Shown: in pieces, positions 876-21,227 of the stretch | How the letters are laid out: every line of letters starts with the position of its first letter | Position numbering within the stretch: position 1 is the stretch's first letter | Virus record (IMG/VR): IMGVR_UViG_3300000553_000365 | Coordinates: 1 to 22,349 of that record | Source of the DNA: a virus | Direction: 5' to 3' (one strand) | DNA length: 22,349 bases | Position numbers and translations under genes: made by a program | Notes under the pieces: model-generated | Database searches by the model: none | What the model saw: the letters and a program-made list of their open reading frames with translations, nothing else | What the model was told of the DNA's origin: nothing

Positions 876-1887
876 ATGAATACTAACGACCTGAAAGTAG
901 AAATTTGTGACATAGAAACATATTTTTGTATGTTTCTTTACTGTGGTTATGATCCTCAACAAGACAAAAAGTTTGAGTTTGAGATATCTTTCAGGAAGAA
1001 TGAGATAGATGGTCTTGTCAAGCATTTGTTAGAGTATGATAGAGATTTTCTGATTACCTATAATGGTGTACACTTTGACGGACAAGTGTTACAGCACATA
1101 ATTGATAATCATGAAGATTGGACACATTATACCTGGAGACAAGTGCTTGATGAGATCTTCTATTTTGCACAAAAAACAATTGATGATAGAAACTATGATT
1201 TACCACCAAAATATAAAGAATACTACCTTAGTTTCAAGCAAATTGATTTGTTCCTTCTACTTCATTTTAATAATGATGCTAAGAGAACGTCCTTAAAGTG
1301 GACAGAGTTTTCATTGGATGGTGATATTGAAGAATTACCAATAGATTTCAGAAAAGAGGAGTTAACTTCTGAAGAGATAGATGAAGTAATAGCTTACTGT
1401 TATAATGATGTATTTGCTACTTACAACCTGTATAAAGCATGTACTGGTGATACTGATCATCCTGATTATAAAGGTAAGAACAAAGTACAGCTTCGTCTTG
1501 ATCTGATTGATGAGTACAAGTTACCGCATACAGCTATTAACTGGAATGATGTAAAAATTGGTACAGAGCTCAATAAAAAATCTTATCTCAGTCTATCAAA
1601 GTTAAATGAAGATCAGCTATACAAAAAGGTAAAAGAGAGAAAAACCAAAACTGGTTTCTGTTTTAAAGATTGTTACCCTGATTACATGAAATTTCAAACA
1701 AAGCAATTTCAAGATTTTTTCAAAGATGTAGGCAATGTAAAAATCAATCTTAATGAGAAACAAGAGTTTCCACTTATTCAAAATGGTACAACTTTTATGT
1801 TTGCTAAAGGTGGCTGTCATTCACAAGACAAGCCTAAAAAAATACATATACCTGAAGGTCATATTCTTATTTCTGCAGACGTTGGGT
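876..1887 (+). CDS. Family B DNA polymerase, exon 1 (exonuclease domain to motif A)
   Basis: First exon of the phage replicative polymerase. It encodes residues 1-337 plus the first base of codon 338. The 3'-5' proofreading domain is complete: Exo I D12-I-E14, Exo II Y62-N-G-V-H-F-D68, Exo III Y174 to D178 (YCYND). The exon ends inside palm motif A (D335-V-G-S-M-Y-P), the metal-binding site. Without splicing the frame runs into the intron and stops at 1908-1910, giving a protein with no polymerase domain. Joined to 2826-3883 the product is 689 residues, shorter than RB69-type PolB and longer than phi29 polymerase. The exon boundary is set by the P1 helix of the intron and restores the motif exactly. 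Confidence 0.93.
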
Positions 1888-2825
1888 TAAGGACAATATG
1901 GCCCAACTAAAATTCCTTAAATTGACTGGAATAGCTTTAGAGCCTTGTACACTCCCTGTAGCAGTAATGACTACAGTATAGTAAAAGAGATAAGGATTAG
2001 CCAATCAGCAGCCAAGCATCCACAGGGTCGGATGAAGGTTCAGAGACTAAACAGGGAAAGTTTCAAAAAAGTTCTTTGAATGTGTTGGATATATCCATCT
2101 AACTTTATTAAATTTGCATTATGAAATTATTTAGAAGCAGAGATTTAAGAAAGTCGGGTATATATGTAATTAGGAATACCAAAAACGGTAAAGTTTATGT
2201 CGGTAAGGCATTATGTATCTATAGGAGAATTAATGATCATGTAACTGCTCTGAATAAGAAATTAAGAGATAGGGAGAATGATCACCTGATACGTGCCTGG
2301 CATAAATACGGTCGAGACTCATTTGAATATTTTGTAGCAGAATATACAGAAGTTTCTGTAATGGCAGAAAAGGAGCTGTATTGGATGAAGCATTTAGACT
2401 CGCTAAATCCAAAATTTGGTTATAATAAAAGAGAAGATTCATCTACAGGTTTAATTGTAAGTAATGATACTCGTGAGAAACTTAGAACTGCTCAAATCAA
2501 AAGATTTCAGGACCCTGAAGAACGAAAGAAATGTTCACATGATTTCTGGAAAAATAATCCAAATAAATTAAAAGAAATGAGTGTGAATTTATCAAAATCT
2601 CGTTCGAGATACCTAATACATCAATTATCAAAAGATGGTGATTTAATTAAAACTTGGAATACCATGCTTGAAATATTGACAGAAAATCCAACATACAAAA
2701 GAGGTCCGATATACGGAGCTTGTTCAGGTAAAAAACCTACAGCTTATGGATATTTATGGACTCAGGAACTAAAAGAAATTATGATATAGTCCGATCTTAC
2801 TGGAGACAGTAAGCTAACATAAATG
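1888..2825 (+). ncRNA. Group I self-splicing intron in the polymerase gene, with homing endonuclease ORF
   Basis: 938-nt intron. P1: exon bases 1881-1887 (GTTGGGT) pair with 1901-1907 (GCCCAAC) over seven pairs, with the canonical U-G at the splice site (1887 with 1901). The core contains the conserved CAATCAGCAGCCAAGC (2002-2017) and the P7 strand in GGTTCAGAGACTA (GACTA 2045-2049), which pairs with TAGTC at 2787-2791. P9 is a 7-bp stem with a GAGA tetraloop (2796-2813). The last intron base is G2825, as expected for omega-G. Removing 1888-2825 joins T to CA and restores DVGSMYPNII in frame. The endonuclease ORF occupies the P8 side, between the two P7 strands. Confidence 0.93.
2121..2789 (+). 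CDS. GIY-YIG homing endonuclease encoded in the group I intron
   Basis: Site-specific endonuclease expected to cut intron-less polymerase alleles and so spread the intron. The 222-residue product has the GIY-YIG domain at about residues 12-95: G13-I-Y15, Y26-V-G28, an arginine pair at 35-36 and the catalytic glutamate region AEKELYW (E85 the likely metal ligand). A NUMOD3-like DNA-binding stretch (TREKLRTAQIKRFQDPEERKK) follows. From about residue 180 there is a NUMOD1-like module (LSKDGDLIKTW, IYGACSGKK, AYGYLW). All key residues are present, so it looks functional. Its TAG stop is also part of the 3' strand of P7, so coding sequence and ribozyme core overlap by a few bases. Confidence 0.93.
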   Translation: MKLFRSRDLRKSGIYVIRNTKNGKVYVGKALCIYRRINDHVTALNKKLRDRENDHLIRAWHKYGRDSFEYFVAEYTEVSVMAEKELYWMKHLDSLNPKFGYNKREDSSTGLIVSNDTREKLRTAQIKRFQDPEERKKCSHDFWKNNPNKLKEMSVNLSKSRSRYLIHQLSKDGDLIKTWNTMLEILTENPTYKRGPIYGACSGKKPTAYGYLWTQELKEIMI

Positions 2826-3883
2826 CAATGTATCCAAATATTATTCGTAAAAGGGGTATTTATCCAGTACATCTTGGTCCTAAATGGAATGAAGCATATG
2901 TATTGAATATCTCTAAGCGACTTGAGGCCAAAAAGAAATTTAAAGAAACAGGTGATAAGAAATATGACAATTTTCAAGAAACCTATAAATTGATACTTAA
3001 TGGTTCTTTTGGTAAACTTGGTGATACTTATGATTGGCAGTATGATGCTTTTGCCGGCATGAAAGTTACTATAGGTGGTCAGATAGATCTATTTATGCTC
3101 ATTGAAGATTTTTGCATAGCTGGTTTTAAGATTACTTCTGCTAATACAGATGGTATGGAATGTCTTGTACCAGTAGACAGAATACAAGAGTATTATGAGA
3201 TATGTAAAGACTGGGAAGCAGAAGTTGGTAATGATGTATTGGGCAACCTTGAGTACGTAGAGTATGAGATGTTTGCTCAAACTTCAGTAAACGATTACAT
3301 AGCTGTCAAGAAAGCTGATTGGATGTGGAAAGATGACAAGTTTCAAGCTGTTCCAATTAATAAATCTATTGAAGCAAGAACAAAGAAAAAGGGTGATTTC
3401 CTGACAAGTTATGAGCTGTATAAGAATAAGAGCAAATGTATTATTCCAATAGCATTGGAGAAGTACTTCACTCAAGGTATTGTTGTAGCAGATACTATCA
3501 AAAATCACCGTAACATCTTTGACTTTTGTATAGCAAAAAAGGCATCCAGAGATTACTTCTATCGTCAGGTAGATAGAAAGATAGGTACTGTAACTGATCT
3601 AAACAAAATGATACGTTACTATTGCTCTAAAGGTAAAGGTGAAAAGCTTTATAAAATCAAGAAAGCTTCTTCTGATAAGACTGGCCCGGAAACATCTACT
3701 TGTGAATCAAAAAGTAATCAGCAAGTATTGTTTAACAGACCTTTCAAATTACAGAATTGGGAAGATTATGGAATTGATTATCAGTTTTATATAGACCAGG
3801 CATATGTCATAATTGACAAGATAGAGCCAGAAAAAGTTATTCAAAGAAAAGCAAAAGAAAACGGTCAATTTAGTTTGTTTTAA
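2826..3883 (+). CDS. Family B DNA polymerase, exon 2 (palm, fingers, thumb)
   Basis: Second exon, encoding residues 338-689 of the spliced protein. It opens with the rest of motif A (S338-M-Y-P-N-I-I). Motif B follows at K392-L-I-L-N396-G-S-F-G and motif C at A443-N-T-D446-G. Motif C is usually YxDTDS: here the first aspartate is asparagine while the metal-binding second aspartate is kept, a variant I associate with some phage PolB proteins. The C-terminal 200 residues would form the thumb and are lysine-rich. The frame needs the upstream CA of exon 2 to complete codon 338; the ATG at 2828 is internal, not a start. A 10-bp palindrome ACTTGCAAGT follows the stop at 3884-3893. Confidence 0.93.
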
Positions 3884-11310: not shown

Positions 11311-11636
11311 ATGGAAAACAATATAGCAATAAATGCAATAGCTGATGTACAATCAACTAAGGAGTTTTTAAAAGCAGTACCAGTACCTGCAATAACGAGC
11401 TACTATAAACCAATCTCACATAGTCAACTAATGGACTTGACATTAGAGAGCATAGATAAGTGTGGATTCTTATTAAGAAGTGAGCATTATACCCAAAATG
11501 CAGGTGGTATGAAAGCTAATGGTAAATACCATCTTGATTACGGCAATGATCCAGATATGTCAATAATGATAGCATGGCAGAATAGCTATAATAAGACATT
11601 GAGTATGAAGTTTGCAATTGGGGGCCACGTTTTCAT
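11311..11636 (+). CDS. DUF932-like protein, exon 1
   Basis: First exon (326 nt, residues 1-108 plus two bases of codon 109) of a DUF932-family protein, a family of unknown function common in phages and plasmids. Typical features are the IAWQNSYNKTLSMKFAIGGHVFI segment with the N-S-x-x-K-S pattern and the beta-rich hydrophobic stretch. Without splicing the frame would end at the TGA 11638-11640, giving a truncated protein. The exon end is set by the P1 helix of the intron. Spliced length is 248 residues. Confidence 0.8.
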
Positions 11637-11932
11637 TTGATTTGCAAGTGACCTTATACAGTAATGTATATTGAATAACCCTGTTAATTGCTGGAAACCT
11701 AAATCGAGAGATATGGCAATCAGCATCCAAGCCTTGTACAATAACAAGGAAGGTTCAGAGACTATCGAAACTACAACTGAAATATGTTGGAAAGGAGTAG
11801 AGTACGCTTCAAGTGAAGTGGAAATGCAGGGGATCCAGAAATGGATCGTGATATAGTCCGATCTTAATAGAAATATTAAGCTATTGTGTAAACCACAATG
11901 CCTTATGAATAACGAACATAAGGAAACTAAAG
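11637..11932 (+). ncRNA. ORF-less group I intron in the DUF932-like gene
   Basis: 296-nt intron. P1: bases 11633-11639 (TCATTTG) pair with 11645-11651 (CAAGTGA), seven pairs with the U-G at 11636/11648, exactly at the splice site. The core has CAATCAGCATCCAAGC (11718-11733) and GGTTCAGAGACTA, whose P7 strand GACTA (11760-11764) pairs with TAGTC 11854-11858. P9 is a 7-bp stem with a GAAA tetraloop (11863-11880), followed by hairpins near 11883-11899 and 11901-11923. The last base is G11932. Joining 11636 to 11933 gives GHVFICENGMVKGD in frame. There is no credible ORF inside. Confidence 0.9.
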
Positions 11933-15997: not shown

Positions 15998-16010
15998 TCT
16001 GTTCAAAAAC

Positions 16011-16172
16011 TGACTGCTTATAAATTCTTTGAAACCTATACCCACAAAGGGTTTCAGACTAAAAACGTATACTACACTATATTGGTAGCACTACCTACCG
16101 CAAGAGTGTTTAGTACACCAATAGCCTGAAAACCAATACAGACAAGGGTTTCAAAGGATTTATAGTATGTCA
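16011..16172 (+). ncRNA. Candidate structured RNA or cruciform, 162 nt
   Basis: This is the centre of the 214-base non-coding stretch 15998-16211. The outer stem pairs 16018-16036 with 16147-16165 over 19 unbroken pairs (17 Watson-Crick, 2 G-T). After an internal loop TGAC (16011-16014) pairs with GTCA (16169-16172). Nested inside are 16050-16057 with 16126-16134 (8 bp, one bulge), 16080-16086 with 16117-16123 (7 bp) and 16087-16092 with 16105-16110 (6 bp), whose loop holds CGCAAG, a possible GNRA cap. There is no U-tract, so it is not a terminator. It could be a regulatory RNA, an origin, or a leader of the RepL-like gene. It does not match a class I recognise. Confidence 0.5.
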
Positions 16173-16176
16173 GAAA

Positions 16177-16213
16177 ATGTACAAAAATACAGAACATAAA
16201 TATGTACAAAAAT
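16177..16213 (+). repeat. Direct repeat at the start of the RepL-like gene
   Basis: ATGTACAAAAAT occurs twice, at 16177-16188 and 16202-16213, the second overlapping the start codon at 16212. A partial third copy (TTTGTACAAAAT) lies inside the gene near 16252. Spaced repeats over the start suggest an operator or a binding site of the encoded winged-helix protein. Confidence 0.45.
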
Positions 16214-16757
16214 GGATGAAAAGTTGGTTAATATAGAAGAATGTGGTAAATTTGTACAAAATCTGACAGAAATGAGTAGGAAATTACCACCAATAGATGA
16301 GAGTAAGTTAGTTACCAATCCTTTTGCACAAGAACTGATAGTAGAAGCTACTAAAGTAATGGATGAAGGGATCCTAATAAAAGATGAGGATGGTGTAATG
16401 CTACCTGCTCACCATTTTGTAGAAAGACAAAAAGCTACAAAGTTATACCACTATCCAGGAAGCAAGGAAAAAGCAATGGAGTTGTCATCTGGTGCACTTA
16501 GAATGCTTGTATACATGGCATACACAATGGAGGGATCTAAAGACTGGTTAAGGGTAACACCAGAGACATACCAAAAGAAGTCAGAGAAGGGTAGTAGAAA
16601 TACGTACAAAAGAGCTATTGATGAGTTGATAACACAGGGTTACATTACTCCCACTATTTACAAGTATACTTATTGGGTAAATCCAATACTAATGTTTGCC
16701 GGCAGTAGAATAAAAAAGTATCCTACTAAAGTAAAAGTTAAAAACATAAAAGATTAA
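16212..16757 (+). CDS. RepL-like winged-helix protein, possible replication initiator
   Basis: 181-residue product resembling the plasmid RepL family of replication initiators, also found in crAss-like phages. The C-terminal half (about residues 90-170) is a winged-helix layout: SSGALRMLVYMAYTM, a WLRVTPETYQKK segment, recognition helix NTYKRAIDELITQGYI, and a wing ending in YWVNPILMFAGSRIKKYP. The YWVNP(x)4-5AG-R end is typical of RepL-type proteins. The N-terminal 80 residues are helical and acidic. It follows the structured non-coding element, and an ATGTACAAAAAT repeat covers its start. It could equally be a transcription regulator; initiator is an inference. Confidence 0.65.
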   Translation: MDEKLVNIEECGKFVQNLTEMSRKLPPIDESKLVTNPFAQELIVEATKVMDEGILIKDEDGVMLPAHHFVERQKATKLYHYPGSKEKAMELSSGALRMLVYMAYTMEGSKDWLRVTPETYQKKSEKGSRNTYKRAIDELITQGYITPTIYKYTYWVNPILMFAGSRIKKYPTKVKVKNIKD

Positions 16758-18289: not shown

Positions 18290-18349
18290 AGGTGGTAAAG
18301 TTATAGAATAGATATAGTGGAATAAGCCACTGGTAAGGCTTTGAGTACT

Positions 18350-18456
18350 AAATAACTATCTCTCAAAATAGTTAAAGGGTGTCTACAGAATAGTTAGGTA
18401 CATTCTTAACTATTTTCAGGGATAGTTATTTTATTTTTACCATCTCTCAAAATAGT
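18350..18456 (+). repeat. 26-bp inverted repeat with 15-nt iteron-like repeats, candidate origin or operator
   Basis: This is the core of the 255-base non-coding stretch 18290-18544. Arm 18350-18375 pairs with 18406-18431 across 26 positions with one C-C mismatch (18364/18417) and one G-T pair; the loop is 30 nt. ATCTCTCAAAATAGT occurs exactly twice as direct repeat (18358-18372 and 18442-18456), and an inverted copy with two changes lies in the 3' arm. The hexamer AACTAT or its complement occurs five times. Before it, small alternative hairpins (18316-18331 or 18324-18341) are visible. After it, TAGTACC occurs twice (about 18478 and 18516). It resembles iteron and inverted-repeat arrays at replication origins, or an autoregulated operator. 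Confidence 0.55.
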
Positions 18457-18544
18457 ACAAACATAAAAATAATAGTGTAGTACCGTAAATAAAATGTGCT
18501 AATAAGAATATAAATTAGTACCTTAGCGTAAAATATATACACTA

Positions 18545-19084
18545 ATGGACAGGAAACCGTTTTTAAAACAAATAAGAGTGGATAATGTAGATGCAATAAC
18601 TAAACATGGTGAACATTATACAGCACAAAAAAAGTTTCAAATAGTAGAGGAAGACAATGCTAAATTTTTACTGATGTTTCACCATATATCAGCATTCATG
18701 AATGGTTTAGATAGTCTTGTTGATGTTAAACTAATGAATTGGATATCTGACAATATGAATTACAATGACAGTATCATAATGCTAGATAAGTACTATAAAC
18801 AGAAAGCAGCAGAGTATGTAGGATTTAGCTATTCAGCAGTTGAAAAATCAATTAGTTCTTTAACAGCAAAAGGGTTTTTAGTTAAGCACAACTGCAAAAG
18901 ATGTGCAAGGTATCATGTAAACCCATCTTATATATGGTATGGAGATAAAGCTGTAAGAGATGGTAAATTAAAATTTGTATTGGAACTAATGCAATACCAA
19001 GATCTTCCAGATAGAGAACAAGAAATATTAGATGACATAGAAAGAGCATCTGAACATTACAAAAACCAACAAAAAAGTAAATAA
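18545..19084 (+). CDS. Second RepL-like winged-helix protein
   Basis: 179-residue product with a RepL-like winged-helix core at about residues 45-145: LLMFHHISAFM, a VDVKLMNWIS segment, a basic recognition helix region (YSAVEKSISSLTAKGFLVKH) and a wing ending RYHVNPSYIWYGDK. A pair of cysteines (CKRC) sits in the wing. It shares the wHTH layout and HVNP/WVNP-type end with the protein at 16212 but is otherwise divergent. It follows the inverted repeat/iteron region, which could be its binding site. It starts at ATG 18545 and its stop overlaps the next gene by one base (TAATG). A regulator of its own promoter is the alternative. Confidence 0.62.
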   Translation: MDRKPFLKQIRVDNVDAITKHGEHYTAQKKFQIVEEDNAKFLLMFHHISAFMNGLDSLVDVKLMNWISDNMNYNDSIIMLDKYYKQKAAEYVGFSYSAVEKSISSLTAKGFLVKHNCKRCARYHVNPSYIWYGDKAVRDGKLKFVLELMQYQDLPDREQEILDDIERASEHYKNQQKSK

Positions 19085-20237: not shown

Positions 20238-21227
20238 ATGGCAAAAGCAACTAAGCAAGAAAATCCTGAACAGGATAAGTATGCAGAAACAATTAAAAAA
20301 TTAGAAGCTCGATATGGAATTGGGACTATCATTCATGGTAAAGATGTAAAAGAAGATCTTGAAGTAGTAACAACTGGTTCAATAAGTCTTGATATTGCTA
20401 CAGGTCTTGGTGGTAATCCAGTTGGTAAATTAATTGAGATATTTGGTCCAGAGAGTTCGGGAAAATCAACTTTATGTTTGCACATGACTTCAGGTTTTCA
20501 AAAATTAGATGGTGAGTGTTTATTAGTAGATTATGAACATTCATATGATAAAACATATGCTACGGCACTTGGTGTAGATGTAGATAGACTTACCATTATA
20601 CAGCCAGATTGTATGGAAGATGGTTATAATATCATTGAGACTTTGATTAGAACAGGTAAGGTAAGATTTGTAATTATTGATTCGCATACTGCAGGTTTAC
20701 CAAAAGTAGTTATTGCAGGTGAAGTAGGAGATGCAACAGTTGCTGCACAAGCTCGTATTAATAGTGTTGCACTTGGTAAAATTAAACCATTACTAAAACC
20801 AAACCGTTGTACAATGGTAGGTGTATCACAACTCAGATCTGCTATTGGTAGTCAACATGGTGGAGATAAGCCATCAGGTGGAAATGCATGGAAATTCTAT
20901 AGTGATATTCGTTATAAGGTATGGAAAAGTAATGACATAGAAAAAGAAATGAATAAAACTACAGTAGATGTTATAAAAAATAAATGTTCTTGCCCATTTG
21001 GTAAGGCTGAGTTCAATATCAACTGGGGTACCGGTGTAGATCGTCAAAAAGAACTAATTGACTTTGCATGTGAATTTGATCTTATAAAGGTAGGTGGTTC
21101 ATGGTTTACTGTAGGTGAAACTAAATTCCAAGGTATGGATAAAGTAAAACAGTTCTTAATAGATAATCCTGATTATGCTACAGATCTTGAAACACAAGTA
21201 ATGGAAAAAATAAAAGGAGGCAAGTAA
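20238..21227 (+). CDS. recA: RecA-like recombinase
   Basis: Strand-exchange recombinase. The 329-residue product has Walker A G70-P-E-S-S-G-K76-S-T, equivalent to GPESSGKTT of bacterial RecA, and a LLVDYEHSYD Walker B-like segment. VGVSQLRSAIG (L1) and SGGNAWKFYSDIRYKVWK (L2 region) match the conserved RecA DNA-binding loops. The usual acidic C-terminal tail is missing: the protein ends in a basic MEKIKGGK. Length fits phage RecA/UvsX. With the PD-(D/E)XK exonuclease upstream it forms a recombination pair. The TAA overlaps the next ATG. Confidence 0.92.
   Translation: MAKATKQENPEQDKYAETIKKLEARYGIGTIIHGKDVKEDLEVVTTGSISLDIATGLGGNPVGKLIEIFGPESSGKSTLCLHMTSGFQKLDGECLLVDYEHSYDKTYATALGVDVDRLTIIQPDCMEDGYNIIETLIRTGKVRFVIIDSHTAGLPKVVIAGEVGDATVAAQARINSVALGKIKPLLKPNRCTMVGVSQLRSAIGSQHGGDKPSGGNAWKFYSDIRYKVWKSNDIEKEMNKTTVDVIKNKCSCPFGKAEFNINWGTGVDRQKELIDFACEFDLIKVGGSWFTVGETKFQGMDKVKQFLIDNPDYATDLETQVMEKIKGGK

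Follow-up and report, generated by a model that had tools for sequence, protein, structure and literature searches.

The locus described here raises the question of what a compact set of repeats is doing between a mazG-type gene and a gene of the RepL family in a large phage. The window, by which we mean the whole stretch of 22,349 nucleotides that was analysed, is a 99.98% identical part of a 108-kb contig (IMG/VR 3300021130_000224), and the repeats lie within a 255-bp intergenic gap (18290-18544, + strand), where they are followed by a stretch of about 73% A+T. No DNA or protein matches of this region to named phages were found. An earlier, sequence-only reading had described iteron-like repeats directly upstream of the protein encoded at 18545, and this position is confirmed, the array lying 107-191 bp before the RepL-family gene. 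On the comparisons given below, we consider it probable that the array is the cognate binding array of RepL, and serves as an iteron-type replication origin or control region.

The most conspicuous feature of the gap is a long inverted repeat (18350-18431, no strand assigned) with 26-nt arms (18350-18375 and 18406-18431) around a 30-nt loop. Its score of 20 compares with a best score of 13 among 300 dinucleotide shuffles, and no other inverted repeat in the 108-kb contig scores 13, making it the strongest of the contig. The stem length of 26 positions given earlier holds, but not its single mismatch: 24 of the 26 positions form Watson-Crick pairs, and one of the two DNA mismatches pairs as G.U in RNA, which accounts for the lower count. 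The sequence ATCTCTCAAAATAGT is indeed present exactly twice (18358-18372 and 18442-18456) and once as an imperfect inverted copy (13 of 15 positions, 18409-18423), and the five claimed AACTAT/ATAGTT hexamers are there, at 18354, 18368, 18390, 18408 and 18422, a count reached by no shuffle of the intergenic region. A set of 20-bp units is a more apt description of the element than an inverted repeat. Unit U1 (AACTATCTCTCAAAATAGTT, 18354-18373, + strand) has 6-bp dyad arms (dyad p about 0.03). The weak unit U2 (18376-18395, + strand) agrees with it at 10 of 20 positions, sharing AATAGTTA at a step of 22 bp, so that the right half of U1 is repeated directly at that distance (shuffle p = 0.019). 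The inverted unit U3 (18408-18427, - strand), which is identical to U1 at 18 of 20 positions, forms the long stem with it, and U4 (18438-18457, + strand), identical at 17 of 20, follows 84 bp past U1. The combination of direct and inverted copies in U1, U3 and U4 has a shuffle p of 0.01, and the inverted repeat one below 0.01. The related strain G003 has T in place of C at 18441, by which U4 regains its dyad arm and comes closer to U1; as a single event, this is weak evidence. No further copy of the unit motif within 4 mismatches was found in the 108 kb. Searched against 2.9 million viral contigs, the exact 20-mer had 5 matches outside the phage group (L014 and L017-L020), which we rejected as copies of the element because their context, while mutually similar, is unrelated to this one.

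Such a structure could also be a transcription terminator ending the mazG transcript, or some other RNA structure, with the repeats arising by chance or duplication, and we regard this explanation as decidedly improbable. The RNA fold is strong (z = -5.1, with a core stem of -31.7 kcal/mol), and a U-rich stretch follows the stem on the + strand (GATAGTTATTT followed by TATTTTTA), so the lack of a long U-tract, cited earlier against a simple terminator, is no reason to set one aside. However, the stem is A+T-rich and its loop is 30 nt long, unlike an intrinsic terminator, and a scan for such terminators (a G+C-rich stem with a short loop, then a T run) gave no + strand site here. A terminator also leaves unexplained the presence of U4 beyond the U-rich stretch. 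As for other RNA elements, an Rfam covariance search of the window gave no match at the array, its only match being a group I intron elsewhere.

That intron (RF00028, 81 bits) lies at 11627-11880. At the intron's 3' end, just past 11889, the related strains G002 and G003 are longer by about 1,026 bases, perhaps an intron-borne endonuclease gene that is missing in the window. The DNA polymerase gene (876-3883) is also split, its two open reading frames matching adjoining positions 51-357 and 359-660 of phrog_1252, with a GIY-YIG endonuclease frame (2121-2789) between them; this interruption is likely a mobile intron. The part of it that was compared (1850-2900) gave no alignment to G002 or G003.

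The protein downstream of the array (18545-19084, + strand) is clearly a member of the RepL family, as the sequence-only reading had proposed, matching PF05732 over residues 29-163 with 35.6 bits against a cut-off of 20.3. A structure model of modest confidence predicts a winged helix in the middle of the protein, around residues 58-125, and we propose that it is the cognate initiator. The claim that the phage has two RepL-like proteins is borne out for this one; the supposed first (16212-16757) resembles the family weakly at best, having no Pfam RepL match and only a short alignment to the RepL profile (E = 0.002, probability 14%). Its single-sequence structure model (pLDDT 36) is unusable, and it is absent from the relatives examined. 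The gap before this gene (15998-16211) also has an extended, imperfect stem, in which AAGGGTTTCA occurs twice and TGAAACC in inverted form, and no 22-bp repeats were found in it. Because the phage encodes replication functions of its own (polymerase, DnaB-type helicase and RecA-like recombinase), it need not depend on RepL, a point against the preferred reading. The cassette, if it is an origin, may be a secondary or plasmid-mode one.

Comparison with relatives shows that the array and repL were gained or lost together as one separate cassette. In relatives whose exonuclease is about 57-68% identical to that of this phage (L012/L042, L041, L043 and L044), mazG and the exonuclease gene are directly adjacent, with no gap, array or hairpin between them, and a search of their contigs gave no RepL gene. 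This joint absence favours the iteron reading. It also counts against a terminator, since relatives with the same mazG gene and no repL lack the hairpin, and the linkage to repL is left unexplained. The same cassette-free relatives have an open reading frame of about 180-200 amino acids between exonuclease and recA (L012 5323-5919, L041 6456-6992, L043 6450-7019, L044 6450-7055) that is absent from the window. Among closer strains, the intergenic region is 100% (G002) and 98.8% (G003) conserved. We set this aside as proof of function, as the region lies within a mosaic tract: next to a cassette that hardly differs, the 5' half of mazG or recA is diverged. Because the near-identical tract also covers the 3' half of mazG, whose 5' half is strongly different in G002, the conservation is better read as probable recent recombination than as proof of constraint. 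With only three variable sites among the strains, the element offers too few for RNA covariation. Identity of the RecA-like gene (20238-21227) drops to 67% in G002 and 79% in G003, against 96-100% for some of its neighbours, suggesting that it was replaced or is fast-evolving. The mosaic tract would suit an element with no function of its own, part of a recently acquired cassette that is preserved only by its place in a recent recombination tract. We give this very little credence, as RepL genes elsewhere have arrays of the same kind with unrelated sequences, which implies selection on the layout.

The evidence on layout comes from a survey of other RepL loci. The first other phage locus found (L037, contig 3300050132_000248) is unrelated in sequence and has the same arrangement upstream, with TTTATAGCGTAGAT present twice at a 22-bp step and once inverted. 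Dulem virus 41, with an annotated RepL, has the same kind of array upstream of that gene, and so do the tiny plasmids pOM1, pRGI00989 and pRGI00710, in which repL is the only recognisable replication gene. Eleven further RepL plasmid loci were then fetched and all loci scored. The 22-bp step stands out, direct repeats scoring at least 9 in 14 of 20 RepL loci, followed by steps of 44 and 66 bp. Direct repeats of 21 or 22 bp with a score of at least 11 were present in 16 of 22 RepL loci, compared to 2 of 434 regions upstream of other open reading frames, where the controls are from phage contigs only, the first RepL loci had been inspected by eye before scoring, and some plasmid arrays are related to each other (L076, L078-L080), so that the 22 loci represent fewer independent cases. 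The 22 include two phage loci, L101 and L102 (RepL by Pfam), that were added once the rule had been set, and both fit. Three more loci (L057, L068 and pSG3) have repeats at 42-44 bp. Three RepL genes were found in bacterial genomes, and the two examined (L103 and L104, replicon status unclear) have 24/25-bp repeats. The common layout is thus one of direct repeats with a period of 21-22 bp, usually with an inverted copy, in sequence unrelated to that of the window. Dyad symmetry is significant in some loci only, and we do not claim it as a universal mark of RepL units.

The survey strengthens the earlier proposal of iteron-like repeats upstream of an initiator, in that arrays precede most RepL genes, often with this period. 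The window's own array, with direct and inverted copies at the customary distance from repL, is significant in that respect and otherwise less typical. Its best spacing below 60 bp is 22 bp, with a score of 8, under the threshold of 11 used for the other loci, and its strong features are the inverted pair U1/U3 and the direct pair 84 bp apart. Because the 22-bp repeat is weak and these pairs dominate, the array appears to be a variant of the RepL layout rather than a textbook case.

Since plasmids with no recognisable replication gene besides repL have such arrays, an array found with RepL is most simply its site of action, as origin iterons, operator, or both. The main rival to an origin is that the array is an operator only, and that RepL is an autoregulated transcription factor instead of a replication initiator, which we judge possible but unlikely. 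Sites of 20 bp with dyad ends, in both orientations and upstream of a winged-helix gene, would suit an operator, as would the best fold matches of RepL, all weak, which are MarR-type regulators. However, four phage relatives have a perfect Bacteroidota-type promoter (TTTG-N19/20-TAnnTTTG, with a background of 0.6% per 300 nt) between array and start codon, which places the array tens of bases ahead of the promoter with no overlap; none was found before the window's repL. An operator must also contend with the retention of the array in plasmids of 2.3-3.1 kb that have no other recognisable replication gene. The promoter that follows the array in the four relatives argues for action at the DNA level, upstream of transcription. 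So does the persistence of repeats without a strong hairpin at L102, pMB7536 and pB771, which also speaks against a terminator.

Nucleotide skew gives the origin reading mixed support. A change of GC skew at the element had been suggested as a check on origin activity, and there is none: cumulative skew is monotonic through 18.3-18.6 kb, and in this phage (G001) the turning points are about 6 kb and over 30 kb distant, an absence of origin signal that suits an operator. The RepL locus is likewise far from the skew minimum in a distant relative (G007). In Dulem virus 41, a complete circle, and in contig G013, the distance from RepL to the minimum is at most about 2.5 kb, which indirectly supports origin activity. 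Neither result is decisive, because skew in these phages also follows gene direction.

Taking replication initiation as the preferred reading, the putative 20-bp sites U1, weak U2, inverted U3 and U4, followed by A+T-rich DNA, would be the cognate array for RepL, a winged-helix protein that is probably dimeric. Bound RepL would then load the replication machinery, with replication starting close by, and may in addition govern copy number and regulate itself. Array and repL together would form a self-contained replicon-like cassette that was inserted between mazG and the exonuclease gene in this phage lineage.

RepL plasmids are commonly classed among the rolling-circle replicons (PMC10135026), and a 1.27-kb Campylobacter RepL plasmid was reported without tandem iterons (PMC11389370). 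Two repL copies are reported in p-crAssphage (PMC10136315), which has been suggested to be a phage-plasmid (PMC11652158). A search of the accessible literature, older subscription papers excepted, gave no account of the cis sites of RepL. A broader generalisation, offered tentatively and as less probable than the reading of this locus, is that RepL-family initiators in general have private, fast-changing upstream arrays with a period of 21-22 bp, and that large phages acquire repL-plus-array cassettes as a second, plasmid-mode origin beside the replication proteins they already encode, and so could also live as phage-plasmids. Because plasmids and phages share the layout, the place at which RepL acts can be tested directly and cheaply, and the layout is relevant to the question of whether large phages with a repL gene are able to persist as plasmids.

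Among known systems, the RepL plasmid replicons (PF05732, rep10 or pSN2-type, such as pOM1, pRGI00710 and E. coli pB771_2310) resemble the window in that a repeat array precedes repL by about 60-220 bp, in A+T-rich DNA and often with an inverted copy. Their arrays are mostly tandem 22-bp repeats, whereas in the window the inverted pair dominates and the 22-bp pair is weak, and its cassette resides in a large phage with other replication genes. Other large phages also bear RepL (Dulem virus 41, PP511520, and IMG/VR contigs 3300005683_000016 and 3300050132_000248), and an upstream array of direct and inverted repeats is common to the window and the Dulem, L068 and L037 loci. The window differs in that its RepL is not at the skew minimum, as it is (or nearly so) in Dulem virus 41 and G013, and in that its cassette separates two otherwise tightly spaced genes, mazG and that of the exonuclease. 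Classical iteron plasmids (RepA/RepB theta replicons), in which the initiator gene follows direct repeats of about 20-22 bp and an inverted copy (operator-iteron pairs), have the same arrangement as the window, with an initiator of a different family from RepL.
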